From assembly GCA_009785215.1 (NCBI GenBank), contig WQWU01000027.1, positions 1 through 35,814 on the forward strand: DNA of 35,814 nt. The letters are read 5' to 3'. Position 1 is the stretch's first letter, and each line of letters starts with the position of its first letter. The notes under the pieces were generated by a model. That model was not told where the DNA came from, made no database searches, and worked only from the letters and a program-made list of their open reading frames with translations. Both the position numbers and the translations under genes were made by a program. Positions 17,105 through 33,617 of the stretch are shown here, one piece after another. This stretch comes from Treponema sp. (lineage in GTDB: Bacteria; Spirochaetota; Spirochaetia; Treponematales; Breznakiellaceae).

Positions 17105-18796
17105 TTAATCAAAAGAAAAATATTTAATCACTACTAACCCATTGCTACCTGCAGAACCAGCACTTTGATTTCCACCACGAGCTCCGCTTCCGCCGCTATA
17201 TCCATCAAAAGAAACAGCAATACCACCATTACCAGGAGTTGAGCCTCCGTTTCCACCACGGTTACCATCATATCTTTGATAATGATTGTATTGAGGCCCT
17301 GGATTACTAGATGCCGAACCAGGTGAACCCCCATTTCTAGATCCAGGCTCTCCACCACCTTGACCACCGAACGCATACATAGTAGTTCCGTTATAGGAAA
17401 TCCAGCTGTTACCGCCTGTGTCACCAGTGTGACCCGATGTGCTACTGGAGGACGTATCTTTTTTACCTCCAGCATTTCCTCCCATAGCAACAAATAGATC
17501 GATTACTATATCACTTGTAGTCAAGAAGCCAAAACGAACTGCTCCGCCGCTGCCACCGCCTGCTCCTGGATACCAATTTCTTATCAATGATCCACTTATG
17601 CAGGCTCCTTGTCCGCCACCACCTGCTCCCCAAGCGTACATAATTACTTGTCGTGGTGTTCCATCTACAGCAGCAGGGAGAATGAATTTATCATTGCCAA
17701 CGGCACTAAAGATTCTAGTATGAACTGTGGTCCAATTAAAACTAGACGCGCGGGCAAAGCTTCTTTCATAAAACTCCATGCGTATGGCCTCTGCACGTTG
17801 GCGAATTTCTATCGCTCTATTTGGATTTAATTCAGCTAGTGCCATAAATACTTGCCATACAGCCATATAACCGCTCATTGGGGAGCCAACATAACCAGGT
17901 GATTGTGTGGCTCTAGAGAACCACTCTTTGTAACCTGCGTAGAATTCTTGACTGCTCTGAAAATCCGCAATTCCTCCAAAAATAAAGTAATTAAAGAAAC
18001 TATTATTTATGAATTCAATTGCTTGTGAAGAGTTAGAGGAATCACAACCAAGCGCAAAGCCATTGTAAGCTGCTTTAAAACCTGTAGAAACTTGATTCAG
18101 ATCGTTAAAAGTGGTACCTCGATAGATATAATTCATACGTGCATAGATACCATGATTTGCATCAGTAATAAAAAATGGGTCATATTTATCTAAGAATAAA
18201 CTTGCACTAAGCCTGAAAAAGTCATCAATACCACTTTGGGTAAGCCGTTGAGCCCAAAAATATGGGGAGTTGCCTCCGATAACATATTCTCTTGCAACAA
18301 CAGTTGTAGTAACTACTTGAATTAATAGTCCTTCTTGACTTAATGAAGAGCTGCCTCCCCAACGTGCACCAATATTTCCGCCAAACGGTAAACCTTCTCC
18401 AATTCCGAAGCTTGCACCTTTATTACTAGATTTTTGAATTTGAAAAACAGATGTTTCAGTTACTTCTTCATAATTAGTATATGGAGAAAATCCTGTCGAT
18501 GCGTTTTCTATCCTAATATCACCAGACATCAAGTAAAAAAGATTAACGGATTTGTTTACATCTGCTCCTGTTCCGCTTTCTGCTTCTAAAACATTGATAC
18601 CTTTTCCAAGGACAGAAGAAATCGCTGAAGAAGAATCATTTACAGGTGGTTTTAGTTCATCATTTATCTTTCTATCATCACTTATTGAAGTTTCAGTTTG
18701 AAAAAGGGGATCTAATTGGCATCCTGTATTAAAGACGATGATTGCCAATACCGTAATTGTGCAGGCTAAAAGCCATGCCAATTTTCTTGCTTTCAT
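17105..18796 (-). CDS. Large lipoprotein with MACPF-like region and Gly-rich C-terminal domain
   Basis: 563 aa. The signal peptide ends FNTGC (Cys26), a spirochaetal lipobox, so it is probably exported and lipid-anchored. Residues about 80-350 resemble membrane-attack-complex/perforin domains: a Ser/Gly-rich beta region (SSNKGASFGIGEGLPFGG), then LTQSGIDDFFRLSASLFLDK and YDPFFITDANHG, where the classical signature would be YGTHY...GG. The signature is degenerate, so this is tentative. Residues about 380-563 form a Gly-rich domain (AWGAGGGGQG, PGAGGGSGGAVRFG, ending SNGLVVIKYF), a module known from phage and surface proteins. AAGGAGG precedes the ATG. The ATG overlaps the stop codon of a 34-aa ORF. 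Pore formation or surface interaction is inferred. Confidence 0.6.
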   Translation of the reverse strand: MKARKLAWLLACTITVLAIIVFNTGCQLDPLFQTETSISDDRKINDELKPPVNDSSSAISSVLGKGINVLEAESGTGADVNKSVNLFYLMSGDIRIENASTGFSPYTNYEEVTETSVFQIQKSSNKGASFGIGEGLPFGGNIGARWGGSSSLSQEGLLIQVVTTTVVAREYVIGGNSPYFWAQRLTQSGIDDFFRLSASLFLDKYDPFFITDANHGIYARMNYIYRGTTFNDLNQVSTGFKAAYNGFALGCDSSNSSQAIEFINNSFFNYFIFGGIADFQSSQEFYAGYKEWFSRATQSPGYVGSPMSGYMAVWQVFMALAELNPNRAIEIRQRAEAIRMEFYERSFARASSFNWTTVHTRIFSAVGNDKFILPAAVDGTPRQVIMYAWGAGGGGQGACISGSLIRNWYPGAGGGSGGAVRFGFLTTSDIVIDLFVAMGGNAGGKKDTSSSSTSGHTGDTGGNSWISYNGTTMYAFGGQGGGEPGSRNGGSPGSASSNPGPQYNHYQRYDGNRGGNGGSTPGNGGIAVSFDGYSGGSGARGGNQSAGSAGSNGLVVIKYFSFD

Positions 18797-18897
18797 ATTT
18801 TCCTCCTTAATTTGAAAACAGAGATCTTTAAAACAGTATTAACTGCTTTAACCTTAGCTATACCAATAAAGTAAAGCCATAATTTTGAAAGTCGCAT
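18793..18897 (-). CDS. 34-aa ORF translationally coupled to the lipoprotein gene
   Basis: Begins MRLSKLWLYFIGIAKVKAV and ends KISVFKLRRKI; hydrophobic with a basic C-terminus. A strong AAGGAGG lies 9 nt before the ATG at 18897, and its TGA overlaps the lipoprotein start as ATGA, as in translationally coupled pairs. An in-frame ATG at 18936 would add 13 residues but has no ribosome-binding site. It may be a leader peptide controlling lipoprotein translation or a membrane-active peptide. Confidence 0.45.
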   Translation of the reverse strand: MRLSKLWLYFIGIAKVKAVNTVLKISVFKLRRKI

Positions 18898-18944
18898 TTC
18901 GTAAACCCTCCTTACCGGGTTGACCAGCACCTTCATGATAATCT

Positions 18945-18963
18945 TCTTGTTATTTAAACAAGA
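18945..18963. repeat. Short hairpin in the leader of the 34-aa ORF
   Basis: TCTTGTT (18945-18951) and AACAAGA (18957-18963) form a 7-bp stem with a 5-nt loop, about 48 bp upstream of the ORF start. Significance unknown. Confidence 0.3.
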
Positions 18964-19059
18964 GTATCCACAAAGAAAAATACAATTTTTAAATCCATAG
19001 TGATTTCATTCTCATCCGTACATAACAACCTGATTGCAGTCAGTTTTTCATTGTAATGT

Positions 19060-19101
19060 ATCTACCTAGAAGACCGCGCAGAAGAAGAAAATTCCACCTT
19101 T
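19060..19101. repeat. 42-bp dispersed repeat, copy 2
   Basis: 34 of 42 positions match copy 1 at 16979-17020. It stands upstream of the 34-aa ORF/lipoprotein unit and touches the last codon of the 74-aa gene. The two copies therefore bracket the lipoprotein unit as direct repeats. Confidence 0.6.
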
Positions 19102-19324
19102 ATTTATTTTTTTTAGCGATTTTCAGCATTCGTTTTTGATCCTCATTTATGAGGTCATTAACAATTTGTTTTCTTTTAGTGTCTGTTATTGAATTTAAAT
19201 CGAAATTTTTATTAAGGAATTCTGGATGTTGTTCAAGAATTAATTTTCTTATTTTTAGATATTCCATAGAATTAAGATGCCAAAATATTGTTATACCTTT
19301 TTGATCAATGTTTTTATCATCCAT
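19100..19324 (-). CDS. Small hypothetical protein (74 aa)
   Basis: Charged, probably helical and cytoplasmic: EYLKIRKLILEQHPEFLN in the middle and a lysine-rich end (KIAKKNK). No family recognised. AAGGAG lies 10 nt before the ATG at 19324, supporting translation. It is divergent from the sigma-like gene at 19530 and shares its AT-rich composition, so it may belong to the same acquired block. Confidence 0.5.
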   Translation of the reverse strand: MDDKNIDQKGITIFWHLNSMEYLKIRKLILEQHPEFLNKNFDLNSITDTKRKQIVNDLINEDQKRMLKIAKKNK

Positions 19325-19437
19325 AAATAAAATCTCCTTAAAATATCTGGCTATGCCAGAGAATTCTGCTCGTCGCTATTGGTTTTTACCTTTTGTCTCT
19401 TACCTAATAAAACCTAGTAAATTACTCAAATTCCATC

Positions 19438-19455
19438 TTATTTTTCGAAAAATAA
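19438..19455. promoter_or_regulatory. 18-bp perfect palindrome upstream of the sigma-like operon
   Basis: TTATTTTTC (19438-19446) followed at once by GAAAAATAA (19447-19455). It has no loop, so it looks more like a dimeric protein-binding site than an RNA hairpin. It lies between the divergent 74-aa gene and the sigma-like gene, 75 bp before the latter's start. No regulator can be named. Confidence 0.4.
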
Positions 19456-19529
19456 CATAATTTATATAATTAAAAAAATGTGGAAATTTCTTTGTTTATG
19501 AGGTCTATATTTTATAACTGGAGGTAAAT

Positions 19530-20711
19530 ATGTCCTATACTTTAGCAATTTGTTCTAAAAAACATCCTCAAATAGGCTTAAAAATTTTTGAATTAAAGAA
19601 AAATAATTTGCTATTAACTAGAATTTCCCATAAAAACCGAAAAATAGTAGTAGATATAATTGAAAATTTATATGTTTTATGTAAAAATATACATATGGCA
19701 ATTAGTAAAGAATATTTGGAAAAATATTGGGCTATTCTTTCTCGGTATTGTGTAAATAGACTTATAGACAAATCTTATGGTATAGATGCAGTAAGTGAAT
19801 CTTTTCGTAAATTTTATAGTAAAAATAGAAATATTGAGAAAGAAGCAATTTTTTCTTATCTAAAAAGAATCGCCAAAAATGTTTGTATTAATATGAATAA
19901 TAAATATATTGAAGAGCAAAATAGTAATAATCCATATAGAGAAAAAAAAGGCATAATTCATAATGATGATGTTGAAAATGTAGAGCCTCGGGATCAAGAA
20001 AAATCATTATTTGTGCCAGGAAAAGAAGTTACTATCGAAGGTTGTTTAGGTATCTCTATTCCTTCAGAAATATTTAATCTTGAAGATGAAGTTAAAAGAA
20101 ATATGAGTAAGGCTAAATATATCATAAATAATGTTATAAAAAATGGAATCAATGTAGACAGAGATCGCAAAATTAATTTCCTCTACTTTGTTCATGACAA
20201 TACTTTAGAAGAAATCGTAAATATCATAAAAAAAGATGATAAAATCGATTTAACAGACACAAGAGTGTCTATAATAATAAAAGATTTTGAAATAAAATTA
20301 AAACTTCATTATATTATAAATAATGATTTTAATGGTGCAAAAAATACTGATAACATAAATAATGCCATCTTTTATCTGCATTTTTTACATAGATTAACTC
20401 TGCCAAAGATAGGTAACTTTCTTGGATTAGATGGAGCAGTAGTAAAAAACATAGTAAATCATCTTAAGCCAAAATTCGATAAATTCATTCAAGATTGTGA
20501 AATGCAAAATCTGTATGTAATTGTTATTGCTGATTCAAAAAATAACAATAAAAACAAACAAGAGATTTACAAATGCTATTTTGAAAAAAGAAATACGACA
20601 GAAGAAATTCAAAATATTTACAAAATAACTAAGGTAAAATTAACAATCATTTTAAATGAGTTCAAATTTAATAAAAAGGTTATAAAGAAATTTATTGAGG
20701 TAAAATTATGA
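19530..20711 (+). CDS. Sigma-70-like regulator with several region-4-type helix-turn-helices
   Basis: 393 aa; start 19530 supported by GGAGG. Residues 60-125 resemble sigma region 2 (AILSRYCVNRLID, then FSYLKRIAKNVCINMNNK, the core-binding pattern fLkrIArN). Three later segments look like region-4 helix-turn-helices: about 212-260 (DNTLEEIVNIIKK), 277-325 (AIFYLHFLHRLTLPKIGNFL, the clearest) and 343-385 (NTTEEIQNIYKITKVK). Ordinary ECF factors have one such region and about 200 aa, so this is an enlarged divergent member. It is AT-rich and lysine-rich. Its stop overlaps the start of the next gene by ATGA, and that product has an anti-sigma-like N-terminus. A role in directing transcription of its own operon is inferred. 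Confidence 0.6.
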   Translation: MSYTLAICSKKHPQIGLKIFELKKNNLLLTRISHKNRKIVVDIIENLYVLCKNIHMAISKEYLEKYWAILSRYCVNRLIDKSYGIDAVSESFRKFYSKNRNIEKEAIFSYLKRIAKNVCINMNNKYIEEQNSNNPYREKKGIIHNDDVENVEPRDQEKSLFVPGKEVTIEGCLGISIPSEIFNLEDEVKRNMSKAKYIINNVIKNGINVDRDRKINFLYFVHDNTLEEIVNIIKKDDKIDLTDTRVSIIIKDFEIKLKLHYIINNDFNGAKNTDNINNAIFYLHFLHRLTLPKIGNFLGLDGAVVKNIVNHLKPKFDKFIQDCEMQNLYVIVIADSKNNNKNKQEIYKCYFEKRNTTEEIQNIYKITKVKLTIILNEFKFNKKVIKKFIEVKL

Positions 20712-21436
20712 ATGAAAATAAAGAAAATATTTCAGACTTAATTCTTGAACTTTACACTCTGGGTGATCTTTCGTCCGAAGAAATGGCTATAATGGATAGA
20801 GCTATTGAAAAAGATGAAATTCTTCGTAAACGATATGAAGAACTCAAAACGTCAATCGATGAAGTTAGTAAACTTTTTAAACTGGAAGATATACCTTTTT
20901 TTTCCAAGCTTGATGATGATATAGACGAGGGCTCGCTTGAAGACAACTTATCTTTAGAGGTAGAGTCTCAAAGTTCCCAAGTGTCTGATAAATTAAAAAG
21001 AAAATTTCCAGTAAAAAAACCTACAAAAATTAATTCACCTTTTACTTTTAGAATTACTAAAGAAAGAAGACAAAGTGTAAATATGACAACAATAGATAAT
21101 AATGACAAATATTTTACAATCATAGAGGATTTTATAGAAGAAGAGGATTTCTGCGGTATTTTCGAGCTTTTGGGAATCACCAATACAAATAGTATTGAAG
21201 CCAGATTTCAGTTTTTTAAGGATAAAAATAAAAAAGAACCGTTAAAATCATCAGATATTACATTTGATATAGATATAGAATATGAAAATAACAATATTTT
21301 AAAAGGCATCAGATTGGAACATAAAATGGAGTCAATAGACGGAGTAATTCGCTCTTCTCCTATTCCTTTTGCATGGTCAAAAAGCTTTGGAGAATTTAAG
21401 ATTACCGGAAGGAAACATATAAAACCCAATGAGTGA
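20708..21436 (+). CDS. Anti-sigma-like protein, cytoplasmic
   Basis: 242 aa. Residues 8-55 (LILELYTLGDLSSEEMAIMD, then RYEELKTSIDEVSKLF) match the helical N-terminus of anti-sigma factors found next to sigma genes in spirochaetes, without the zinc-binding His-Cys-Cys set. There is no transmembrane segment, unlike most anti-sigmas. The C-terminal part (about 105-242) is beta-rich and unrecognised. TTGAGG lies upstream of the ATG. It overlaps the sigma-like gene by 4 bp and the following large gene by 8 bp, so the three are cotranslated. The C-terminal domain may bind a signal or the large partner; this is inference. Confidence 0.55.
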   Translation: MNENKENISDLILELYTLGDLSSEEMAIMDRAIEKDEILRKRYEELKTSIDEVSKLFKLEDIPFFSKLDDDIDEGSLEDNLSLEVESQSSQVSDKLKRKFPVKKPTKINSPFTFRITKERRQSVNMTTIDNNDKYFTIIEDFIEEEDFCGIFELLGITNTNSIEARFQFFKDKNKKEPLKSSDITFDIDIEYENNNILKGIRLEHKMESIDGVIRSSPIPFAWSKSFGEFKITGRKHIKPNE

Positions 21437-24400
21437 TTTTCTAGTTCCTTGTATCATTAAAGGCATAACTAATGGACTTCTTAAGGTAATCTTTATTTTA
21501 GATAAGCCGAAGGATGATCGTGAATATGTATGGGAAAAAATAGAATCGCTTCCTGGAATAAATGATAAAGGAGATTTTATTTGCCCTGAAAAATTACTTA
21601 GAGATGATTTTGATGATATATATAACAATATAAAAAAATATTTTATATATACATTTTTAAATTCCGGTCATGCAAATCCTAGTTTTGAAAGAATATCGTG
21701 CATTCCAATAGAACAACCAATAGAAATTAGCAATTATACTAAATCTGCACTGCTTGGCGTATATTTAGCAGCAGTAAAAAATATATGCGATTTACCGATA
21801 AAAGAAAAATGGAAGACAATAACGGTAACTGGTACTTTTAAAAAATCATCAAAAAACGAACCTGATGGGATCTTAGAATTAGAAGAAATTACTGAAATCC
21901 CGAAAAAAATAGATGCTTTTAAGGAATACGTTAAGGATATTCCTTGTGAAACTAATAATGAAAAACACCTTTTTATTTATATTAGCAATAATAAAACGCC
22001 TGAAGAGGAAAATAGCACTGATAATATTTCTGTTAAGAGATTTTCTCCAGAAACTGATACTATATTTGATATTTTGGATTTTGTTTTTGACTTAAACAAT
22101 AAGTTATTACCAAGCGGGTTTAGTGCAAAAGAACGTATTAAAGATGAAAGGTATTATCATAAATTCGAAGAAGAAATCAATGATATTAAACTCAATTATA
22201 ATAACGAGTTACCTTCTTATGAAAATATTAAACTTTCAAATTTCTTAAATATGAAAAAGGACATACCTTTAAATAAACCTCTTTATATTAATGAAGGCAA
22301 TGATGGTGAAAGAATCGCTATTGCTATAAAATTCGTTCAATATATGATTTGGAATAGAAAATATTTTACTCCTATTTGGATTAATATCAAAAATAAAAGT
22401 GACGATGGTAGAGACGATGGCATAAGTCCACCTATTGAATTTAGAGAGGAATTGAGTAAGATTCTTTACAAGAATCCAAAACCGGCAAAAAGTCTTAGTA
22501 TTTTAGCTGGTTCATCGCATTTAATAATATTAAATATAATACCAGACGGCGAACTTTCTTCTGGTTTTTTCAAAAGAATAGAAGCATTCTATAATTTTAT
22601 CAAAGATAAAAGCCGGATTATTATTATTGGAGAGGCTCCTTATAATAAAAACTTGAATTGGCTTACTAATTTTGATATTAGCAAATTTATTAAATCTGAA
22701 GTACCCAATGGTTTAATGTTTGAAATTATAGAAGAAAAATATATTAAAATAACTAGATATATAGGCGAAGAAGAAAACTTAAATATTCCTGATGCAATTC
22801 TTGGATTACCAGTTACCAGTATTGGAAAAGAAGCGTTTAAGGATAAAAAGACTTTGGAAAATGTTATTATTCCTCTAGCTGTAGTAATAATTGAGGATTT
22901 TGCATTTATGTATTGTGAAAATCTTAAATATATAAATTTCCCGCAAAATATAATTACTATTGGTGCTTACGCATTTTATGGTTGTGAAAACCTTAAAAGT
23001 ATTATGCTGCCACCAAAATTAACAGTTATTAGTAATTCAATGTTTAATTCTTGTCGTTTACTAGAATATATTAATATTCCAGATTCAATAACCATTATTG
23101 AAAAAAATGCATTTCGTTGTTGTTCTGTATTAAAGTATATTAATATACCTAATAATGTAAATACGATTGGAGAAGGTGCTTTTGCTTTTTGTGATTTTGA
23201 AAAAATACTTATTCCGCCAAATGTAACGTCCATAGGAAAAAATGCATTCTATAATTGCTCTTCTCTTAGTATTATAATTCTTTCGCCAAGTATAACTAGT
23301 ATTGAAGATTATACATTTTCCAATTGTTATAACCTTAATTATGCTATTATTTTATCAGAAATAACTAAAATTGGATATGAAGCATTTTTTGGATGTAAAA
23401 AATTAAAAACTATAAATGTACCATCATCAGTGATAGTTATTAAACCTAATGCATTTTTAGGTTGCAATGCTTTAAAATATATAAATTTTCCGCTAATAAC
23501 AGAAATTATATCAATATATAATCGTGATTATATATATAAAAATGAATTTATATATGAACATATAATTGATTATATTGAAAATGCTCTCGATATTCAATAT
23601 CAAGATAATGCTCACTGTAATAACCAACAACAATTTATTACATTTCATTCATCATTAATTACTATTGGAAAAGATGCATTTAAATATTGTAATAAAATTT
23701 TGAATGTTTATATTTATAAACAAACAATAGCAAAAAATGCTTTTGATGAAGGAGTACGAATAAACTACTATGATGATGAATTGCTACAGATAGAAAATAA
23801 CATATATTTAAATGATTCTAATAATACGTCAATTCTTTCTCCAACCGATAAAATAAAACAGCTAATAGAACCAGATATTATAAAAATTAGTGTGATTGGT
23901 GTTGGCGGAGCAGGATGCAATTTTCTTCATCGTATAGATAAAAACACTCCTTATATAAACACAATAGCAATAGATACAGATAGCCATACATTACAGGATT
24001 CTAAAGCGAAAAATATTATTTTAATCGGTAAAAACTTTGCAAATGGTCGTGGATCTGGTGGAAAGCCAGAAAATGGGGAAAAAGCCGCAAAAGAAAATGA
24101 AGGAGAAATAAAATATTCTATTAAAGAATCAAATATCATTTTTATTACAGCAGGATTTGGTGGTGGAACAGGGAGCGGTGCGTGTAGCGTTGTAGCTCAA
24201 ATTGCAAAGGAACTACGTATATTAACAATTGTTATTTATATAATGCCTTTTTATTGGGAAGGAGAATACAAGAATAGAATCGCTAAACAAGCAATTGATA
24301 AAATAAATACAATTGCAGATGTTTGTTTACCTATAGAGAATGAAATACTTATGTCAAGATCTTTAAAAAATAAACCTTTATCAGATGTAAATGGTCATAT

Positions 24401-24797
24401 AGATGAAATATGCGAAAGATTTATTAATTGCTTTTATGAAGTAACAAGTATGGATGTGATATTTCCTGTAAAACTTATGGATTTATTTAATATTTTTAAA
24501 AAGACCAATAAAATATACTTTGGTACTGGAAAAAGCTCTGATAACGAAGGAGTAATATCTGCCATAATAAGGGCAATGGATGATCCATTTATAAAAGATT
24601 CAATTGATTTTCCTATTAATAAAACATCAAATATAATTATTTTTATTAGAGGTTGGTTAAAAATGACAAAATCTAATAATTTAATAATCCATAAAAAAAT
24701 TAAAGAATTAACAAATAAAAATGTAAAAATAACATTATGTTATACAACTGATGATAGTGATGGTTTCCATGTCTCAATAATAATACTTAAAGCTTAA
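21429..24797 (+). CDS. Lon-like / degenerate NTPase / BspA-type LRR / FtsZ-like GTPase fusion protein
   Basis: 1122 aa, cytoplasmic. Residues about 90-185 resemble the Lon S16 fold (KSALLGVYLAAV, ITVTGTF, EIPKKIDAF), with Ser106 and Lys159/160 near the positions of the Ser-Lys dyad. About 280-430 looks like an NTPase core without a proper P-loop (INEGNDGERIAIA; SHLIILNIIPD; SRIIIIGEAP). About 445-775 holds eleven BspA-type repeats of ~23 residues (AYAFYGCENLKSIMLP). About 815-1122 is a full FtsZ-like domain: GVGGAGCN (824-831), AIDTDSHTL, tubulin signature GFGGGTGSG (909-917), DVCLPIENEIL, IYFGTGKSSDNEG and a C-terminal beta domain ending at the stop. The T7-loop region reads PVKLMD, keeping one Asp. 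AT-rich. It overlaps the anti-sigma-like gene by 8 bp. The function is unknown; a regulated polymerising sensor is my inference. Confidence 0.75.
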   Translation: MSDFLVPCIIKGITNGLLKVIFILDKPKDDREYVWEKIESLPGINDKGDFICPEKLLRDDFDDIYNNIKKYFIYTFLNSGHANPSFERISCIPIEQPIEISNYTKSALLGVYLAAVKNICDLPIKEKWKTITVTGTFKKSSKNEPDGILELEEITEIPKKIDAFKEYVKDIPCETNNEKHLFIYISNNKTPEEENSTDNISVKRFSPETDTIFDILDFVFDLNNKLLPSGFSAKERIKDERYYHKFEEEINDIKLNYNNELPSYENIKLSNFLNMKKDIPLNKPLYINEGNDGERIAIAIKFVQYMIWNRKYFTPIWINIKNKSDDGRDDGISPPIEFREELSKILYKNPKPAKSLSILAGSSHLIILNIIPDGELSSGFFKRIEAFYNFIKDKSRIIIIGEAPYNKNLNWLTNFDISKFIKSEVPNGLMFEIIEEKYIKITRYIGEEENLNIPDAILGLPVTSIGKEAFKDKKTLENVIIPLAVVIIEDFAFMYCENLKYINFPQNIITIGAYAFYGCENLKSIMLPPKLTVISNSMFNSCRLLEYINIPDSITIIEKNAFRCCSVLKYINIPNNVNTIGEGAFAFCDFEKILIPPNVTSIGKNAFYNCSSLSIIILSPSITSIEDYTFSNCYNLNYAIILSEITKIGYEAFFGCKKLKTINVPSSVIVIKPNAFLGCNALKYINFPLITEIISIYNRDYIYKNEFIYEHIIDYIENALDIQYQDNAHCNNQQQFITFHSSLITIGKDAFKYCNKILNVYIYKQTIAKNAFDEGVRINYYDDELLQIENNIYLNDSNNTSILSPTDKIKQLIEPDIIKISVIGVGGAGCNFLHRIDKNTPYINTIAIDTDSHTLQDSKAKNIILIGKNFANGRGSGGKPENGEKAAKENEGEIKYSIKESNIIFITAGFGGGTGSGACSVVAQIAKELRILTIVIYIMPFYWEGEYKNRIAKQAIDKINTIADVCLPIENEILMSRSLKNKPLSDVNGHIDEICERFINCFYEVTSMDVIFPVKLMDLFNIFKKTNKIYFGTGKSSDNEGVISAIIRAMDDPFIKDSIDFPINKTSNIIIFIRGWLKMTKSNNLIIHKKIKELTNKNVKITLCYTTDDSDGFHVSIIILKA

Positions 24798-24859
24798 TAA
24801 TAAAAAAGACTGCCAGAGCAGATTGAGCCGGAATATTAAGTGAATTCTTCAAGTTTAAC

Positions 24860-26488
24860 TTAAACCTTTGCCCGTCTTAATCTTACGCTTTCAATGTCAT
24901 GGCTGAAAAGTTCACGTAAATCGTTCAATCCCAGCGCCATTAATGCCATGCGATCAATTCCAATACCCCAGGCTGCTACAGGTACATTTATACCAAGGCT
25001 TGCAGTTACTTCCGGCCGGAAAATACCGGAACCGCCAAGTTCAAACCAGCCAAGAACAGGATGTTTAATATGCACTTCTACAGACGGCTCTGTAAAGGGA
25101 AAGTAACCGGGAACATATTTAACCTCTTTAGCTCCGGCAACCTCGCAGGCGAACATTTCCAGCATTCCCAAAAGCGTGCGAAGGTTGACATTTTCGCCTA
25201 ACACAATTCCCTCTGTCTGATAAAAATCCGGCAGATGAGTAGCATCTACGCGATCGTATCTGAAACAGCGGGCAATACCAAAGTACTTGCCGGGAATTTT
25301 TGCAGTGGGCAGGGCTTTTGCCGACAGCGCCGTTCCCTGTGAACGCAGAATAAGACGTTTTGTAAAATCACGATCAAAGCTGTAATTCCAGCCGCGGCTG
25401 CCTGTTGTTCCGCCGTTTTCGTGAGCGGATGCGACATTGGAAAGCCAGGGTTCTTCTATCGATTTTGCCCGCGCAACTCCGTCTTTTGCTTCGCCTTTTG
25501 GATCTGCAATACTATAAGCATCGTGTATATCGCGGGCAGAATGGAACTGCGGCATAAAAAGCGCATCCGAATTCCAGAACTCAGTTTCAACTAACGGGCC
25601 GTCAAATTCTTCAAAACCAAGAGAAGCCAGTTTATCTTTTACATTTTCAAGAAACTTTGCATAAGGATTACTGCGCCCCGGCGTTAAACGAACAGGCGGA
25701 GTTTTAACATTATATGAACGGAATGTCTTGCCTTTCCAGCTGCCGCTTTCCAGCATTGATTGTGTAAGAGCGCCGGTTTCATCACCTGTTATCCCCGCTG
25801 TTTTAAGAGCGTTTGCAGTTTCAACAGCAGCGTCAGTAAAACCATATACAACAGTTTCGCGGTCTATCTGACGAAATGCAGCATCTGCGGCACCGCGTTT
25901 TTTTGCGATAGTGCGGATAAATTGTTTTTCTGCTTCATCCAAAGACGCTTCTGCAAGTAACCCGTTATTTGTAACAACTTTAATCAGTAAACCTTTGATA
26001 ATTTGAAAGTGCGCTAACACAGGATTTTTTGCCGGATCATCAAGGTGTTCAAGCGGCAGCGTTATAGTAACTTTTTTATCGCCGTCCATTGCAAGCACAC
26101 CAAGCTTGGAAAGGCTTCCAAACGCGCTGCCAATGTCTTTATTTTCCATTTTTAGGGCTTCTGCAATATCTGGCAGGCGAGGTTTGTCTTCGGCTTGTTT
26201 TATTCTTTGCCGGATTAATTCCAGTATTCGTTCTTCCGGACTGCCTTTTTCTTTCCAGTCCTGCCCAAGTGCGGTCAATTCGTAATAAACTGCAATTTCT
26301 CGCCGTATTTCACTAATAAGCTCTTTTCCAAAAAGCCAGGAAAGCGCCTGATTTCCGTTTCCCGGTTTAAATCCCAGATCTTTTTCAGCTTTTTCGATAG
26401 TCAGCTCATCACCCTTTTTATAAGAGAGAAGAATTCTTACTTCCAGCGGGTGCAGATTTTTTACAACATTTTTTATATCAACCGGCAT
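24860..26488 (-). CDS. pheS: Phenylalanine--tRNA ligase alpha subunit, archaeal type
   Basis: Catalytic subunit that activates Phe and charges tRNA-Phe with PheT (encoded at 3692). 542 aa from MPVDIKNVVKNLHPLE, preceded by GGAG; an upstream in-frame ATG at 26533 gives an extension without ribosome-binding site. The N-terminal ~200 residues form winged-helix-type tRNA-binding domains as in archaeal/eukaryal PheRS. Class II core: FEEFDGPLVETEFWNSDALF (motif 1 region), FRYDRVDATHLPDFYQTEG (motif 2), GSGIFRPEVTASLGI and GIGIDRMALMALG (motif 3). The length is well above the ~340 aa of usual bacterial PheS, consistent with the archaeal-type enzyme of spirochaetes. Confidence 0.95.
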   Translation of the reverse strand: MPVDIKNVVKNLHPLEVRILLSYKKGDELTIEKAEKDLGFKPGNGNQALSWLFGKELISEIRREIAVYYELTALGQDWKEKGSPEERILELIRQRIKQAEDKPRLPDIAEALKMENKDIGSAFGSLSKLGVLAMDGDKKVTITLPLEHLDDPAKNPVLAHFQIIKGLLIKVVTNNGLLAEASLDEAEKQFIRTIAKKRGAADAAFRQIDRETVVYGFTDAAVETANALKTAGITGDETGALTQSMLESGSWKGKTFRSYNVKTPPVRLTPGRSNPYAKFLENVKDKLASLGFEEFDGPLVETEFWNSDALFMPQFHSARDIHDAYSIADPKGEAKDGVARAKSIEEPWLSNVASAHENGGTTGSRGWNYSFDRDFTKRLILRSQGTALSAKALPTAKIPGKYFGIARCFRYDRVDATHLPDFYQTEGIVLGENVNLRTLLGMLEMFACEVAGAKEVKYVPGYFPFTEPSVEVHIKHPVLGWFELGGSGIFRPEVTASLGINVPVAAWGIGIDRMALMALGLNDLRELFSHDIESVRLRRAKV

Positions 26489-26543
26489 TTTGTCTCCATT
26501 GTTATAATAATCAAAAATTAACATTACGGTCAATATATAAACA

Positions 26544-26571
26544 TTGATTTTTGCCTTTTATGGATTATAAT
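26544..26571 (+). promoter_or_regulatory. Promoter of the hybrid-kinase operon, very short leader
   Basis: TTGATT (26544-26549), a 16-bp spacer, and TATAAT (26566-26571). The ATG at 26586 follows by 14 nt and has no Shine-Dalgarno sequence, so the leader would be about 8 nt. Confidence 0.5.
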
Positions 26572-26585
26572 GTTACATTAGTATT

Positions 26586-29500
26586 ATGATAAAATTTACG
26601 AGTATAAAAACAAGAACTACTCTTTATACATTAATTCCGGTAGTAATCGGTTTTATGATTATCTGTACAGTTATGTTTGTATCATTATTTAATTCGCAAA
26701 GAAATACTGTTAGAGCAGAATTTCATAATATAGTAAAAAAACATACAGGAAACTTCGAAAAAAAAATAAATAATACAATTGATTATCTAGCATTTGTTTC
26801 AAATATCCTGGAATTTCAAATAAAGGAAGATTCAGTAGACAGAGAATTAATGCAAAGGATGATGCTTGAAATTTTTGAAAGATTCCCGAATGTTAGCAGT
26901 TCCAGTCTTTATTTTGAACCCAATATGTATGACGGAAAAGACGCTCTATACAGAAACACAGAATACGGTTCTTCCCTTTCCGGAAGAATAAGTTACTATT
27001 ATAAACGGGAAAACAACAGAACTATCTATTTACCTTCATCTATGGAAAATGAAATAGAATTTCTTCTTCCCTATTATACCATTACCAAAGAAACCGGCCG
27101 CCCGTATTACACAGATCCAGTAATGTACAACATAGACGGAACAGAAGTTTTAATGTGTGTGATTGTTTTTCCGATATACGGCAAAAATAATGAATTTATA
27201 GGCGCTGTAACCGCCGACATTTTCCTTGGCGATATTTATGAATTATTACAGGCAGAAAAAATTTACGAAACCGGATACATGATAATAATTACCGGAAAAA
27301 ACCAGATACTTTACAGCCCCAGATTCGAAGATATCGGAAAAACAAGCGATGAAACATATCTAACATTTTCTTTTCCGGAAAATACAGAAAAAACAATTAT
27401 TTTTCATACAAGGTCTATTATAAATAATAAAAGAGCTTTAACTGCTGTTAATACTTTTTTTATACCGGAAATAGACAGTCATTTTTTCATTTCTATAACT
27501 GCTCCTGTCAGCGAAGTGAATGCATTTGAATCCAGGCTGGTTATTATAATTCTTTTTCTCAGCCTTGCCATAATCGTTCTTACTGCCGTTTTTGTTTTTT
27601 ACTTAATCAATAAACTTACAAAACCATTACAGGAATTTACATCCAGCGCAGATAAACTGGGAAACGGCGATTTCAGCGCAAGAATAACAGGTTATTACGA
27701 TGATGAATTCAGCATTTTAAAAGACACTATCAATTTGATGGCTGAACGCATAGAAGAAAATATAGAAGAATCCAAAATCACACTCCGCGTACTGCAGACA
27801 GTATTAAACGGTATTGATGCATTTATCTACGTAACCATTCCTGCAACAGGCGAGATTCTTTTTATAAACGAACGCATGAAAGTTATGTTCGGGCTTAAAG
27901 ATGATGAAGGAGTAGGGCAGTACTGCTATAAACTTTTCAGAAAAGACCTTGATGAACGATGCTCCTTTTGTCCGATTTTCCAGCTGGAAAAAGAGCCGGA
28001 TAAAGTAGTTGTATGGGAAGAAAAAGTTCCAGAAATAAACCGCGATATCCGCCATACAGACTGTTTTATCGATTGGCCCGGCGGTTTTAAAGTACATATG
28101 CAGCAAGCTATCGATATTACAGATATAAAAACAATAACAGCAGAAAAAATAAAAGCAGAAAACGAAGCACATGATCTGGCGCAGAAAAAAGCACAAGCAG
28201 AAGAAACATCGCGCATGAAATCCGTTTTCCTTGCAAGCATGAGTCATGAAATAAGAACGCCTATGCACGGAATTATAGGATTTTCCGAACTTGCCCTTGA
28301 TGATGATCTGCCTCAGGAATCAAAAAATTATATTTCAAAAATAAAAACAAGCGCAGAAAGTTTATTGTTAATTATTAATGATATTTTGGATGTTTCAAAA
28401 ATTGAGGCTGGAAAAATTGAACTGGAAAAAATACCTTTTGATGTCGGCGATGTTTTTAAACTTTGCCGCTTAATTGCATCTCCAAATGCAGAAGAAAAAG
28501 GCCTTACGCTTTTCTGTTATGCAGAACCTTCTGTCGGCAAACTGCTTCTTGGAGACCCAACGCGGCTTCGCCAGATACTTTTAAATCTTCTTTCCAATGC
28601 CATAAAATTTACAAATAACGGCATGGTAAAACTTTTAGCTGCTGTTAAGGAAAATACACAAAACGGCGTAACAATGCATTTTGAAATAAAAGACAGCGGC
28701 ATTGGCATGACAGATGAACAAATAACCAGGGTATTCCAGCCTTTTATGCAGGCAGATGACAGCACAACAAGAAAATACGGCGGAACAGGACTTGGTCTTA
28801 CAATTACAAAAAGTTTTATAGAACTTATGGGCGGAAAATTGCAGGTAGAAAGCAGTTTTGGCGTAGGAAGTAAATTCTGCTTCGATTTAACATTCGAAAC
28901 AATAGACGTTACTGCAGCTCATTCAGATTTAAATATATCCATTAACCGCAGCGAAAAACCGGTATTCGACGGAGAAATCCTGGTTTGCGAAGACAATGAA
29001 CTTAATAAAATTGTTATCTGCGACCACCTTGCAAAAGTAGGAATAAAAACTGTTGTAGCAGATAACGGAAAAATAGGCGTAGATATTGTCAAAAAATACA
29101 TAGAAAGCGGACATAAACCATTTAATTTAATTTTTATGGATATTCATATGCCGGAAATGGACGGCCTTGAAGCATCCAAAAAAATTATAGAATTGGGATG
29201 CAGAGTGCCGATTATTGCATTAACTGCAAATGTTATGCAAAATGATAAAGAATTGTATTTTAAATCGGGAATTGTTGATTGTCTTCCTAAACCTTTTGTA
29301 ACAAATGATTTGTGGACATGCCTGTTAAAATATATTACGCCTGTCAGTATGATAAACTTAAATAAAGATTCCGATTTCTCAGAAGAAGAAAATCAACGAA
29401 TGGAAATAATTAAAACATTTGTTAAAAATAATCAAACGGCTTTTATCAAAATAAGCGAAGCTTTGGAAGCGGGAGATATTAAACTTGCACACAGGCTGGC

Positions 29501-29915
29501 ACACTCATTAAAAGGCGTTGCAGGACTTGTCGGCAAATATAATTTATCAAAAGCCGCAAGCGCAGTTGAACAATCCCTTGCTCTGGGCAAAGCAGATCAA
29601 TTAAACGATCAAATGATTATACTGGAAAACGAATTAAATTCCGCACTAACTGAACTATCAGATATTGCAGAAAAATTTTTCGGCAAGAATAAAAAAACAA
29701 TAGATGAAAATCTAAGTAAAGAAGCTGCCTTAAACCTTTTAAAAGAACTTGATTTTTTATTGGAATCCGACAGTTATGACAGTTTAGAAATGGTAAAAAA
29801 AATAAGTTCCATTCCCGGCACAGATTTGCTTGCAGAACAGGTAGAAAACATGAAATTTAAACAGGCGCGTGAAACTATAACTAAAATAATAAAACAAATG
29901 GATACCCAAAAATGA
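26586..29915 (+). CDS. Membrane-bound hybrid sensor histidine kinase
   Basis: 1109 aa. Transmembrane helices at about 15-35 and 315-340 enclose a periplasmic dCache-like sensor (SSSLYFEPNMYDGKD, GRPYYTDPVM, VFPIYGKNNEFIGAVTADI). A HAMP linker follows (LTKPLQEFTSSADKLGNGDF), then a PAS-like segment with clustered Cys (CYKLFRKDLDERCSFCPIF). HisKA: SHEIRTPMHG with His554. HATPase: NLLSNAIKFT, DSGIGM, GGTGLGLTI. Receiver: MDIHMPEMDG with Asp852. Hpt: LAHSLKG with His973. This gives a complete internal phosphorelay. It overlaps the following response-regulator gene by 4 bp, the likely output partner. The ligand is unknown. Confidence 0.92.
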   Translation: MIKFTSIKTRTTLYTLIPVVIGFMIICTVMFVSLFNSQRNTVRAEFHNIVKKHTGNFEKKINNTIDYLAFVSNILEFQIKEDSVDRELMQRMMLEIFERFPNVSSSSLYFEPNMYDGKDALYRNTEYGSSLSGRISYYYKRENNRTIYLPSSMENEIEFLLPYYTITKETGRPYYTDPVMYNIDGTEVLMCVIVFPIYGKNNEFIGAVTADIFLGDIYELLQAEKIYETGYMIIITGKNQILYSPRFEDIGKTSDETYLTFSFPENTEKTIIFHTRSIINNKRALTAVNTFFIPEIDSHFFISITAPVSEVNAFESRLVIIILFLSLAIIVLTAVFVFYLINKLTKPLQEFTSSADKLGNGDFSARITGYYDDEFSILKDTINLMAERIEENIEESKITLRVLQTVLNGIDAFIYVTIPATGEILFINERMKVMFGLKDDEGVGQYCYKLFRKDLDERCSFCPIFQLEKEPDKVVVWEEKVPEINRDIRHTDCFIDWPGGFKVHMQQAIDITDIKTITAEKIKAENEAHDLAQKKAQAEETSRMKSVFLASMSHEIRTPMHGIIGFSELALDDDLPQESKNYISKIKTSAESLLLIINDILDVSKIEAGKIELEKIPFDVGDVFKLCRLIASPNAEEKGLTLFCYAEPSVGKLLLGDPTRLRQILLNLLSNAIKFTNNGMVKLLAAVKENTQNGVTMHFEIKDSGIGMTDEQITRVFQPFMQADDSTTRKYGGTGLGLTITKSFIELMGGKLQVESSFGVGSKFCFDLTFETIDVTAAHSDLNISINRSEKPVFDGEILVCEDNELNKIVICDHLAKVGIKTVVADNGKIGVDIVKKYIESGHKPFNLIFMDIHMPEMDGLEASKKIIELGCRVPIIALTANVMQNDKELYFKSGIVDCLPKPFVTNDLWTCLLKYITPVSMINLNKDSDFSEEENQRMEIIKTFVKNNQTAFIKISEALEAGDIKLAHRLAHSLKGVAGLVGKYNLSKAASAVEQSLALGKADQLNDQMIILENELNSALTELSDIAEKFFGKNKKTIDENLSKEAALNLLKELDFLLESDSYDSLEMVKKISSIPGTDLLAEQVENMKFKQARETITKIIKQMDTQK

Positions 29916-30808
29916 CTTCCGAAAAAAAAATCCTCGTTGTAGATGATGAAAAAATAAATATTATGGCTTTGGCGCAATTTTTAAAACCAAGGTACGATAT
30001 AATTGTAGCAACAGACGGCGCTGCCGCTCTGGAAACGGCAGAAAAACATATCCCAGATTTAATTTTGTTGGATATAATCATGCCGGACATGAGCGGGTTC
30101 GATGTTCTTTTAAAATTAAAAGATACTGCAGCAACCATGAATATTCCGGTAATTTTTATAACCGGGTTAAGCGATGCAGAAGACGAAGAAAAAGGTTTGT
30201 CTCTTGGTGCTGTAGATTATATAAAAAAACCTTTTAATCAGACAATTGTAAAAGCAAGAATTCAAACTCATTTAAAAATGGCGGATTATGTAAAAACAAT
30301 AGAAAAACTTTGTATGCTGGATGCGCTCACAGGACTGCCAAACAGACGCGGGTTCGACTCGCGTATAGAAGCCGAGTGGGGGCGCTCTCACAGGGAAAAA
30401 AAGAAGCTCGGTTTAATTATGCTGGATATCGATAATTTTAAAATATATAACGATACATACGGACATCCTCAGGGCGATATTTTGCTGCAGACAATCGCAG
30501 AAATACTGAACAAAACGCTTCATAGAGCTTCTGATATTGCAGTAAGATGGGGCGGAGAAGAATTCTGTGTCTTGCTTCCTGATACAGATATAGAAGGCAC
30601 ATACAAAATAGCAGAACAAATACGAAAAAATATTATGGATACTCCCATAACTTGTTTATCCAATAAAGAAATTTCTGTAACAGTCAGCCTTGGCGCCTGT
30701 TCAATAATTCCGGGCGATAACGATAAAATTGCCGATTACATCTCGGAAGTTGATAAATTGCTCTATATTGCAAAGAAAAACGGCAAAAATCAGACTTGTA
30801 TACCATAA
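29912..30808 (+). CDS. Response regulator with GGDEF domain (diguanylate cyclase)
   Basis: 298 aa. Receiver domain 1-120 with LLDIIMPDMSG (phospho-acceptor Asp54) and the conserved Lys in YIKKPF. GGDEF domain about 130-298: DALTGLPNRRGFDSRI at the start and active-site GGEEF at 214-218, so cyclic-di-GMP synthesis is expected. An RxxD inhibitory-site motif (RASD, 205-208) lies five residues before GGEEF, indicating product feedback. It overlaps the hybrid kinase gene by ATGA, so phosphotransfer from the kinase Hpt domain to Asp54 probably controls cyclase activity and thereby motility or surface behaviour. Confidence 0.93.
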   Translation: MTSEKKILVVDDEKINIMALAQFLKPRYDIIVATDGAAALETAEKHIPDLILLDIIMPDMSGFDVLLKLKDTAATMNIPVIFITGLSDAEDEEKGLSLGAVDYIKKPFNQTIVKARIQTHLKMADYVKTIEKLCMLDALTGLPNRRGFDSRIEAEWGRSHREKKKLGLIMLDIDNFKIYNDTYGHPQGDILLQTIAEILNKTLHRASDIAVRWGGEEFCVLLPDTDIEGTYKIAEQIRKNIMDTPITCLSNKEISVTVSLGACSIIPGDNDKIADYISEVDKLLYIAKKNGKNQTCIP

Positions 30809-30824
30809 AATGCACCGAAATTCC

Positions 30825-30853
30825 TTGACCCAAACGCGTTTTTTTTGTATTTT
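30825..30853 (+). promoter_or_regulatory. Candidate promoter of the grpE-dnaK-dnaJ block
   Basis: TTGACC (30825-30830), a 17-bp spacer with a T tract, and TATTTT (30848-30853), 32 bp before grpE. No CIRCE-type inverted repeat (HrcA operator) is visible here. Confidence 0.45.
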
Positions 30854-30885
30854 TTATATAAGAAAATAATAATTAGGTACCGGAA

Positions 30886-31521
30886 ATGATAGAACAAGAG
30901 ACTCAGACAGGTCAACCTGACCAAGAACAGGCTCAGGTTGAGGGAAATGAAAAAGAAGAAGTTGCTGCACAAGGTGCTACACAAAGTGCGGCAGAAGGAG
31001 CCGATTCAGCTTCTGAAACTTCACCCTCCCCTGTAACCCCGGAAGAAAAGATAGCTGATCTGGAAGAAAAACTGGCAGAATCTCACAACCAATTTCTGCG
31101 AAAAGCAGCTGAATTTGAAAATTTCCGCAAGCGGATGAATCAGGAAAAAACAAGCGCAATTGAATACGCAAACCAAAGCCTTTTACTGGACATTATCCCG
31201 ATAATCGATGATTTTGAACGCGCAATTCAGGCTGGGGAAGCAGGCTTGCAAGCCGGCTCTGCAGACTACAATGGCTTTTTAGAAGGCATCAAGATGATCG
31301 AAAAACGATTCATAAATCAGCTGGAAGTTAAGTGGGGTTTAAAACGCTTTAATTCTGCAGGAGAACTTTTTGATCCTAACCTTCACGAAGCGCTCTTTAT
31401 GGAAAAATCATCCGATGTAACCGAGGCAACTGTACAGGAAGATTTGGTAAAAGGGTATTATTTAAAAGAAAGAGTTATAAGAGCGGCAAAAGTAAAAGTA
31501 CTAATGCCGGAAACTAATTAA
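30886..31521 (+). CDS. grpE: Nucleotide exchange factor GrpE
   Basis: 211 aa co-chaperone that releases ADP from DnaK. The N-terminal ~50 residues are acidic and Gln/Glu/Ala-rich and probably disordered. A long coiled-coil helix follows (KIADLEEKLAESHNQFLRKA, AEFENFRKRM), then the beta-domain that contacts DnaK (FDPNLHEALFMEKSSDVTE, VQEDLVKGYYLKERVIRAAK). Length and motifs are normal for the family. It is first gene of the chaperone block, 149 bp before dnaK, with a structured repeat leader between them. The ribosome-binding site is weak. Confidence 0.95.
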   Translation: MIEQETQTGQPDQEQAQVEGNEKEEVAAQGATQSAAEGADSASETSPSPVTPEEKIADLEEKLAESHNQFLRKAAEFENFRKRMNQEKTSAIEYANQSLLLDIIPIIDDFERAIQAGEAGLQAGSADYNGFLEGIKMIEKRFINQLEVKWGLKRFNSAGELFDPNLHEALFMEKSSDVTEATVQEDLVKGYYLKERVIRAAKVKVLMPETN

Positions 31522-31533
31522 CAAATATTTATT

Positions 31534-31670
31534 AGGAGTTATAATCAACACTTCGTGTTGATTTTCGATTAAAATCAGCGGCAAAGCCGCTTAAATAGGA
31601 GTTTTCATTAACACTTCGTGTTAATGTTCGATTAAAATCAGCGGCAAAGCCGCTTAAATAGGAGTTATAA
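31534..31670 (+). repeat. Two and a fraction tandem copies of a 63-bp hairpin repeat in the dnaK leader
   Basis: Unit 1 (31534-31596) and unit 2 (31597-31659) are followed by an 11-bp third start (31660-31670) that supplies dnaK's ribosome-binding site; every unit starts with AGGAGTT. Each full unit holds two hairpins: AATCAACAC-TTC-GTGTTGATT in unit 1, CATTAACAC-TTC-GTGTTAATG in unit 2, and AGCGGC-AAA-GCCGCT in both. The differences between units are compensatory, so pairing is kept. Possible roles are a post-transcriptional control element (an RNA thermometer would be attractive before dnaK) or a dispersed palindromic repeat that has duplicated. Confidence 0.8.
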
Positions 31671-33617
31671 ATGGGAAAAATTATTGGTATCGACTTAGGA
31701 ACAACAAACTCATGCGTATCCGTTCTTGAAGGCGGAGAACCTATAGTCATTCAAAGTTCCGAGGGCGGACGAACAACGCCCTCCATTGTTGGTTTTACAA
31801 GTAAAGGCGAACGAATTGTCGGCGCACCGGCAAAAAATCAAATGATCACAAATCCCGAAAACACCGTTTACTCCATTAAACGTTTCATGGGGCGCCGTTT
31901 TTCAGAAGTATCCAACGAGATGAAACTGGTTCCTTACCACATATCGGAACAGGGCGATGATGTCCGTATAGACATAGACGGAAAAAAATATTCGCCTCAG
32001 GAAATTTCCGCCTTTGTTCTGCAAAAAATGAAAAAAACTGCAGAGGACTATCTTGGCGAAACAGTAACAGAAGCTGTTATTACAGTTCCCGCATACTTTA
32101 ACGATGCACAGCGTCAGGCAACCAAAGATGCAGGAAAAATCGCAGGTCTCGATGTAAAACGCATAATTAACGAACCTACTGCCGCTTCTCTTGCTTTTGG
32201 CTTTAATAAAGACTCAAAAAAAGACAAGTTAATCGCCGTTTACGATCTTGGCGGCGGCACTTTCGACGTTTCCATTCTGGAACTTGGCGAAGGTGTTTTT
32301 GAAGTTAAAGCAACAAACGGCGATACACACCTTGGCGGCGATGATTTCGATCGCCGTATTATGGAATGGCTCATTGCAGAATTCAAAAAAGATACAGGCA
32401 TCGATCTTGGGCAGGATCGCATGGCTCTTCAGCGCCTGCGTGAATCTGCAGAAAAAGCAAAAATAGAGCTGTCCTCCATGCAAACTTGCGAAATTAATCT
32501 GCCGTTTATCACCGCCGACCAAAGCGGACCCAAACATCTGCAGAAATCGCTTACACGCGCAAAGTTTGAACAGATGGTAGAAGACCTGCTTGAACGTTCC
32601 AAAGAACCCTGTAAAAAGGCGCTTGCGGATGCAGGACTTAGTGCAGACCAAATTGATGAAGTTATAATTGTCGGCGGTTCAACAAGAATCCCTGCTGTTC
32701 AGCAGATTGTTAAAGATCTCTTTAAAAAAGAACCTAACAAAGGCGTCAACCCCGATGAAGCTGTTGCAGTAGGCGCGGCAATCCAGGGCGGAATCCTTGG
32801 CGGTGATGTAAAAGACGTGCTTCTTCTCGATGTCACTCCTCTCTCGCTTGGTATCGAAACATTGGGCGGTGTTATGACAAAACTTATCACCCGCAATACA
32901 ACCATACCTACACGTAAAAGCCAAATCTTTTCTACAGCGGCAGACAGCCAGACAGCTGTCTCTATTCATGTACTTCAGGGCGAACGGGAAATGGCAACTC
33001 AGAACCGTCCTCTTGGACGTTTCGATCTTGTCGGCATTCCTCCGGCTCCGCGCGGCGTTCCTCAAATCGAAGTTACATTCGATATTGATGCTAACGGCAT
33101 TGTTCACGTAAGCGCAAAAGATCTTGGTTCCGGCAAAGAGCAGAAAATACGTATCGAAAGTTCAAGCGGCTTAAGCGACACCGATATTGATCGCATGGTA
33201 AAAGAAGCCGAGCTTCATGCCGAAGAAGATAAAAAAGAACGCGAAAAAGCCGAAGTTCGCAATGAAGCAGACTCAATGATTTACAGTACAGAAAAAAATA
33301 TTAATGACCTTGGCGACAAGGTAAATGCAGAAGATAAATCAAAATCTGAAGAAGCAATTGCAGATCTTCGCAGAGCTTTGGAAAGCGGCGACATTCAATC
33401 TATCAAAGACAAAACAGAAGCCCTTAAACAGGTTTCCTATAAAATCGCCGAAGAACTTTACAAACAGCAGGGAGCAGCAGGCGGCGGCGCAGAAGGTCAG
33501 CCTGGTCCTGACATGGGCGGTTTTGATCAAGGTTTTAACCAGAACATGGGAGCAGGCGGCAATAATACAAAAAGCGCAGAAGACGCAGATTACGAAGTTG
33601 TAGACGACGACAAGTAA
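31671..33617 (+). CDS. dnaK: Chaperone DnaK (Hsp70)
   Basis: 648 aa ATP-dependent chaperone. ATPase domain: [17 protein letters not shown] at the N-terminus, [36 protein letters not shown], and [11 protein letters not shown]. Substrate-binding domain: [20 protein letters not shown] and [15 protein letters not shown]. Helical lid, Gly/Ala-rich linker, and C-terminus DYEVVDDDK, close to the EEVD-like end that binds co-chaperones. Full normal length. AGGAG at 31660-31664 comes from the repeat array in front. It lies between grpE and dnaJ, its functional partners, with a hairpin terminator after it. Confidence 0.98.

Follow-up and report, generated by a model that had tools for sequence, protein, structure and literature searches.

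The window, a 35,814-nt stretch of Treponema sp. DNA (contig WQWU01000027.1 of assembly GCA_009785215.1), carries a trio of genes, A, B and C (19530-24797), the last of which joins in one protein a Lon-like N-terminal domain, a putative STAND-type centre, leucine-rich repeats (LRR) and an FtsZ/tubulin-like domain. We tentatively propose, with a probability of about 0.35, that the trio is a protease-gated switch of gene expression of the kind used in biological conflicts, having a receptor that resembles the nucleotide-binding leucine-rich repeat (NLR) proteins and FtsZ as a bait. Its role in such conflicts would probably be anti-phage. In this scheme, the C-terminal part of the gene C product (repeats and FtsZ-like domain) would sense, the middle would act as a STAND-type switch that has lost the usual Walker A motif, and the Lon-like domain would be the output, which on activation would cut the anti-sigma-like protein B; this cleavage would free the sigma-like protein A for a transcriptional response, as in the CalpL/CalpT/CalpS system. 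A phage factor attacking FtsZ, or a change in the FtsZ polymer, would touch the FtsZ-like domain and thereby trip the receptor.

An earlier note on this DNA had described gene C as a single 1122-aa frame with eleven BspA-type repeats followed by a complete set of FtsZ landmarks. The frame holds, no stop being found in its 1122 codons, and a pattern count also gives eleven repeats, beginning at residues 465, 488, 511, 534, 557, 580, 602, 625, 648, 671 and 746. The domain search proposed in the same note returned Pfam LRR_5 (E 9.9e-63) and Tubulin/FtsZ PF00091 (E 7.4e-34, residues 819-975), and solved FtsZ chains were matched with E values down to 4.8e-40 over residues 797-1067. The presence of the FtsZ domain and the repeats in one frame is far beyond chance. 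The motifs that bind the nucleotide are kept (GVGGAGCN starting at residue 824 and GGGTGSG at 911), but in an alignment of 41 canonical FtsZ proteins, one stand-alone relative from another genome (G148; G and L numbers are our labels for genomes and loci) and the window domain, the T7 'synergy' loop, canonically N, D, D, reads P, K, D here and I, D, D in the relative, and the frame stops at the end of the FtsZ core, without a C-terminal tail. The NCBIfam ftsZ equivalog TIGR00065 scores 184.7 bits in the window and 211.3 bits in the G148 relative, under a cut-off of 295.2, and a canonical second FtsZ is encoded on contig C18 of the window genome; the fused domain is therefore an extra FtsZ-like domain, and we rejected it as the division FtsZ of this genome. 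Membership of FtsZl1 was rejected as well, the match to Tubulin_2 (PF13809), which we take to be the FtsZl1 model, having an E value of 0.012 and 15.3 bits for a cut-off of 27.

In the N-terminal half of the protein, fold comparison matched the first domain to the Lon proteolytic fold and the centre to STAND/NB-ARC/NLR structures, and on these models residues 1-440 resemble a protease domain of Lon type with a degenerate STAND/NB-ARC-type NTPase behind it. The earlier note had suspected an NTPase-like region upstream of the repeats and an NLR-like layout, without naming a Lon-like fold; with the order Lon-like, putatively STAND-type and repeats, its NLR-like reading is stronger than it could know. 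A sequence search of the PDB with the N-terminal profile returned only a chain of plant MLA13 (E 1.2). Residues S106 and K160, retained by all members of the protein family but one (11 of 12; L071 lacks both), may form a Ser-Lys catalytic dyad, the register of the lysine being uncertain. The Walker A position reads NEGNDGERI in the window protein, which does not fit GxxxxGKS/T, versus GEGESGKS in relatives such as L025; the L081 protein likewise keeps the motif intact. It is also degenerate in L019, which has no FtsZ and in which a hydrophobic stretch near residue 438 may span the membrane.

The gene trio recurs in other spirochaetes. In 12/12 loci (the window and 11 others), gene C comes after two genes of its own orientation, and in all 12 the Lon-like domain is N-terminal, the C-terminal part being variable (ankyrin, LRR, DUF4116 or LRR with FtsZ). 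Among the eight complete C proteins, the tail is of ankyrin type in L020, L025, L069 (by eye) and L070, LRR in L019, DUF4116 in L021, and LRR with FtsZ in the window, and that of L071 has no Pfam match. Of the architecture whose recurrence the earlier note wished to see checked, the trio recurs and the FtsZ part is found in only one of these eight proteins. The distribution is patchy (7 of the 195 genomes of the family).

The second genes of the relatives match one another in several pairs, and the profile of this B family found 15 places in 12/195 family genomes. Seven of these are Lon-STAND cassettes, in three the module stands directly before TPR-CHAT proteins (L061, L175, L176), in three before WD40 proteins (identified with Pfam in L173 and by eye in L170 and L172), and two have no clear partner (L171, L174). 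Of the WD40 cassettes, L172 and L173 have a caspase-like gene nearby, and L173 a trypsin-like one as well; together with the TPR-CHAT neighbours, proteases thus recur around the B-family module. L173 (G000:C47:1-10152) belongs to the window genome, G000, and consists of A, a B with a hydrophobic stretch and TPRs, and the WD40 protein, with trypsin-like and caspase-like flanks. Five cassettes have, upstream of gene A, a conserved small gene of about 104-134 aa, which in four of them is on the opposite strand (Table 1); in L176, the A protein begins with a fused stretch that resembles it. Near the cassette of genome G553 (L070), two vWA-like genes of the TerY type were seen by eye (1-608 and 703-1425), a context familiar from MoxR-vWA conflict systems.

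As to the sigma/anti-sigma-like pair announced by the earlier note, profile matches below the curated cut-offs support it, well for the sigma-like A and weakly for the anti-sigma-like B. Gene A matches NCBIfam TIGR02937 (sigma70 of the extracytoplasmic function, ECF, type) with an E value of 1.1e-7 and 31.6 bits, under the curated cut-off of 42.9, and Pfam Sigma70_r4 at E 0.065 only; it has weak matches in 7 other family genomes (E 0.002-0.009), mostly in frames of 169-206 aa. Gene B resembles the putative anti-sigmaE model NF010501 over residues 12-63 (E 0.016, below the cut-off), and its sole Pfam match is PUB2_N (E 0.0022, also below the cut-off). Genes A and B of the window are unlike the A/B family of the relatives, B sharing the C-terminal part weakly: the full-length B-family profile matches this part of gene B with an E value of 0.0011 among 1734 open reading frames, three narrower profiles gave 0.34-0.86, and the whole-genome search with the B family did not return it. 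For gene A, blastp and profile comparison with the relatives' first genes gave no link.

The three genes overlap by 4 bases (A/B) and 8 bases (B/C), and their G+C content is 23.9-30.0%, the 16 further window genes measured having 34.6-45.2%; within gene C it is 24.6-28.0% across all parts. The trio is absent from six pheS neighbourhoods read in congeners (6 of the 35 genomes with a pheS match). In G158, whose PheS is 90% identical, two other window genes are in place and three different genes stand before pheS, and G152 has its own Lon-STAND cassette elsewhere in the genome. The gene pheS lies close to the cassette both in the window (24860-26533) and in G004 (L021:17009-18757), two genomes of different genera, and its vicinity is possibly an insertion hot spot. 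Divergently upstream of the trio lies a gene for a 563-aa lipoprotein-like product (17105-18796, minus strand) that matches nothing in Pfam and whose C-terminal half is rich in glycine. A promoter scan remained at chance level (40 found, 41.5 expected).

Table 1. Coordinates of the trio, of the parts of gene C and of the small gene upstream of related cassettes
Feature	Position	Strand	Description
Gene A	19530..20711	+	ECF-sigma-like, 393 aa; resembles region 2 at about residues 60-125 and, weakly, a region-4 helix-turn-helix at 279-301
Gene B	20708..21436	+	242 aa, anti-sigma-like N-terminus; C-terminal domain weakly like the relatives' second gene
Gene C, whole	21429..24797	+	1122 aa, fused receptor-like protein; single open frame
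Gene C, residues 3-222	21435..22094	+	Lon-like (S16) protease fold, conserved S106 and K160
Gene C, residues 264-406	22218..22646	+	putative degenerate STAND/NB-ARC-type NTPase
Gene C, residues ~455-790	22791..23798	+	eleven BspA-type leucine-rich repeats
Gene C, residues 813-1122	23865..24794	+	FtsZ/tubulin-like domain, nucleotide-binding motifs intact, T7 loop altered
Small conserved gene	L025:5877-6197	-	
Small conserved gene	L024:5142-5546	-	
Small conserved gene	L069:10644-10958	-	
Small conserved gene	L085:5032-5391	-	
Small conserved gene	L020:4960-5349	+	

The distribution of the FtsZ-like domain is narrow. In the family, 179 of the 195 genomes have an FtsZ match and, among the matches listed, only the window genome and G148 have a second one at a threshold of E 1e-4. 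The closest relative among the matches listed is the stand-alone gene of G148 (L061:3141-4064; 42% over query residues 2-306), the canonical copies listed having 27-36% identity to the window domain. In a tree, the window domain and the G148 copy group with 100/99 support, separately from the 41 canonical sequences; this support may be inflated by the very long branches of both (program warning). In a sample of the phylum, 376 of 392 genomes match, and none of the other matches listed is in a frame of more than 539 aa; three genomes of this sample (G408, G513, G470) have two or three FtsZ matches each at E 1e-20. The G148 gene ends 2 bases from the convergent TPR-CHAT gene of an A-B-CHAT cassette, and it lies behind a gene of its own orientation that has BspA-type repeats at the C-terminal end (L061:796-2706, plus strand), in which LysM-like and peptidase-like parts were also seen by eye. 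That one and the same rare type of FtsZ-like domain is fused to one such cassette and abuts another speaks against chance, with two cases only. The earlier note had held that halves always found as separate genes would mark this copy as a chance fusion; the nearest FtsZ relative is indeed a separate gene, yet one beside a related cassette. A phage origin of the fusion was rejected, the FtsZ matches in 18 phage records all being under 60% identity (those listed, 24-34%), and so was a plasmid origin, 137 plasmid records matching parts of the protein and none over 80% of it. A plasmid search with the Lon-STAND part of L081 gave no match, and two viral-contig scans found no relative.

Since the C-terminal part varies and the Lon-like head does not, we place FtsZ on the sensor side, where a bait or an assembly module seems likelier than an effector. 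CapRel-Ebc is triggered only by a complex of the phage T7 protein Gp0.4 with FtsZ (PMC13423816), so that FtsZ can be part of an immune trigger; by this analogy, a bait is the most likely role of the domain within the favoured scheme. It is further conceivable, although we regard it as doubtful, that the trio would be a bacterial counterpart of the 'integrated decoy' NLRs of plants, with a captured copy of FtsZ, the phage target, as bait and with attack reported through a sigma factor freed via a built-in Lon-like protease.

Several points weigh against the protease-gated switch with an FtsZ bait. Its main weakness is that the LRR-FtsZ fusion was seen in one genome only and that every step of the mechanism (catalysis, B as the substrate, the binding of A and B to each other, the role of FtsZ) is inferred. 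Against the bait role, the synergy loop surface, which Gp0.4 contacts in E. coli FtsZ (PMC13423816), is the part altered here. As regards the Lon-like head, the structure model of the window protein is poor overall (mean predicted local distance difference test score, pLDDT, of 50); Lon was not among the 50 Foldseek matches listed and was seen only in the VIA second look; Pfam scans (E 0.1) of gene C and its relatives found no Lon_C; and a profile-profile comparison of the domain with 10 of the 18 Lon domains fetched gave a probability of 4%. The conserved lysine is about two residues past what we take, by eye and on an assumed numbering, to be the position of the catalytic lysine of Lon. For the other two genes, no recognised sigma or anti-sigma domain was found in the first and second genes of the relatives, and gene A is not in the 60 best matches (E to about 5) of the profile made from these first genes. 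The long branches in the tree count here too, as do the four of the 12 C proteins cut by contig ends (L022, L023, L024, L085), and PADLOC, in which the window's A, B and C match no defence family. The window genome is 1.9 Mb and 74.7% complete.

Other roles could be given to the same proteins. The receptor may be as proposed and the FtsZ-like domain its assembly motor, GTP-driven polymerisation replacing the lost STAND Walker A and clustering the Lon-like domains. The degenerate Walker A beside intact FtsZ nucleotide-binding motifs is in agreement with this, as are the activation of CalpL by oligomerisation (PMC11417357) and the suggestion of Kaur et al. that, in certain conflict systems, assemblies are made by tubulin-type proteins instead of STAND NTPases (PMC7159879). 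L019, however, has a degenerate Walker A and yet no FtsZ, and the change of two of the three T7-loop residues could impair polymer turnover; we consider this role unlikely. We judge equally unlikely that the domain is an effector, which the earlier note had favoured and which, by means of an intact nucleotide face and an altered catalytic loop, would stop division by capping or poisoning the filaments of host FtsZ. Cell-division domains make up about 7.5% of the effector domains of MoxR-vWA systems, with rare FtsZ/tubulin members (PMC7159879), and the stand-alone gene of G148 shows that the receptor is not needed for the domain to act. Nevertheless, the Lon-like domain is the part constant in 12/12 loci, FtsZ sits where the variable sensor side sits and is absent from seven of the eight complete proteins, and the effector reading is weaker than when the earlier note was made.

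An accidental or decaying fusion, in which an LRR-STAND protein was joined by chance to a neighbouring FtsZ-like gene without any dedicated function, would explain the single fused copy among the genomes searched and the degraded Walker A and T7 loop, and the G148 gene behind its BspA-repeat neighbour shows a pair that could have fused; we hold it improbable nonetheless, given the open frame of 1122 codons, the intact FtsZ motifs, a G+C content equal to that of the rest of the trio and the link of the domain to a related cassette in a second genome. A non-immune switch for signalling or surface stress, made of a sigma/anti-sigma pair and a regulatory protease and monitoring the state of division, is very unlikely in our view, although such pairs are common outside immunity and the PADLOC result would suit it, because the patchy distribution, the absence at the six congener pheS neighbourhoods, the low G+C content and the NLR-like architecture are more in keeping with accessory conflict genes than with a core pathway.

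If true, the protease-gated switch with an FtsZ bait would unite features so far seen apart, namely the protease-gated sigma release of Calp, an NLR-like architecture and the FtsZ in the immune trigger of CapRel-Ebc, and it would offer a bacterial system in which the integrated-decoy idea of plant immunity could be tested with short experiments. The class itself (STAND receptor, protease and sigma pair) is already known. As far as the open-licence PubMed Central literature searched shows, its combination with FtsZ is new, and so is the Lon-STAND-repeat family; no LRR-FtsZ or NLR-FtsZ fusion was found there. The earlier note knew of no described LRR-FtsZ fusion under control of a sigma/anti-sigma-like pair. 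Independently of FtsZ, the Lon-STAND-repeat family and the two-gene module of spirochaetes, with its interchangeable protease partners, look undescribed in this literature.

Among known systems, Craspase (TPR-CHAT with Csx30 and RpoE) also works by protease-gated sigma release. The related cassette L061 carries TPR-CHAT proteins as well, a link by analogy, whereas no CRISPR effector was seen in the stretches read. In the Calp system, binding of cA4 (cyclic tetra-adenylate) oligomerises CalpL, which cuts CalpT, and CalpS is released (PMC11417357). The trio resembles it, on weak to moderate evidence, in having three genes, an N-terminal Lon-like domain on a C-terminal sensor, a putative anti-sigma factor and a putative ECF sigma factor, and differs in its sensor, which is STAND, LRR and FtsZ instead of the cA4-binding SAVED, in a Lon likeness by fold only and in sigma and anti-sigma matches under the curated cut-offs; no SAVED match turned up in the Pfam scan, no search being aimed at SAVED or at CRISPR genes in the genome.

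The arrangement of an N-terminal output, a putative central STAND/NB-ARC-type domain and C-terminal repeats is like that of NLRs and bacterial STAND receptors (Avs4, EfAvs5, ZAR1, Apaf-1). Unlike these, the window protein has a Lon-like N-terminus, a degenerate Walker A and an FtsZ-like domain after the repeats. Rare domains of the FtsZ/tubulin superfamily also occur in the conflict loci of MoxR-vWA and GTPase-tubulin systems, in which some cell-division effectors are predicted to be inactive (PMC7159879); here, in contrast, no MoxR or GTPase core lies beside the trio (a Pfam scan of 9 window genes, 17105 to 33617, found no MoxR or vWA), FtsZ is fused to Lon-STAND-LRR, and vWA-like neighbours were seen only at L070. 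FtsZl1 and FtsZl2 are likewise FtsZ-like proteins outside cell division (Makarova and Koonin 2010; PMC2875224), but the window domain matches PF00091 at 7e-34 and Tubulin_2 only at 0.012. Finally, as in CapRel-Ebc, FtsZ would be part of what is sensed, with the difference that there a toxin-antitoxin fusion receptor senses free cellular FtsZ (PMC13423816), while here the FtsZ-like domain is built into the candidate receptor itself.

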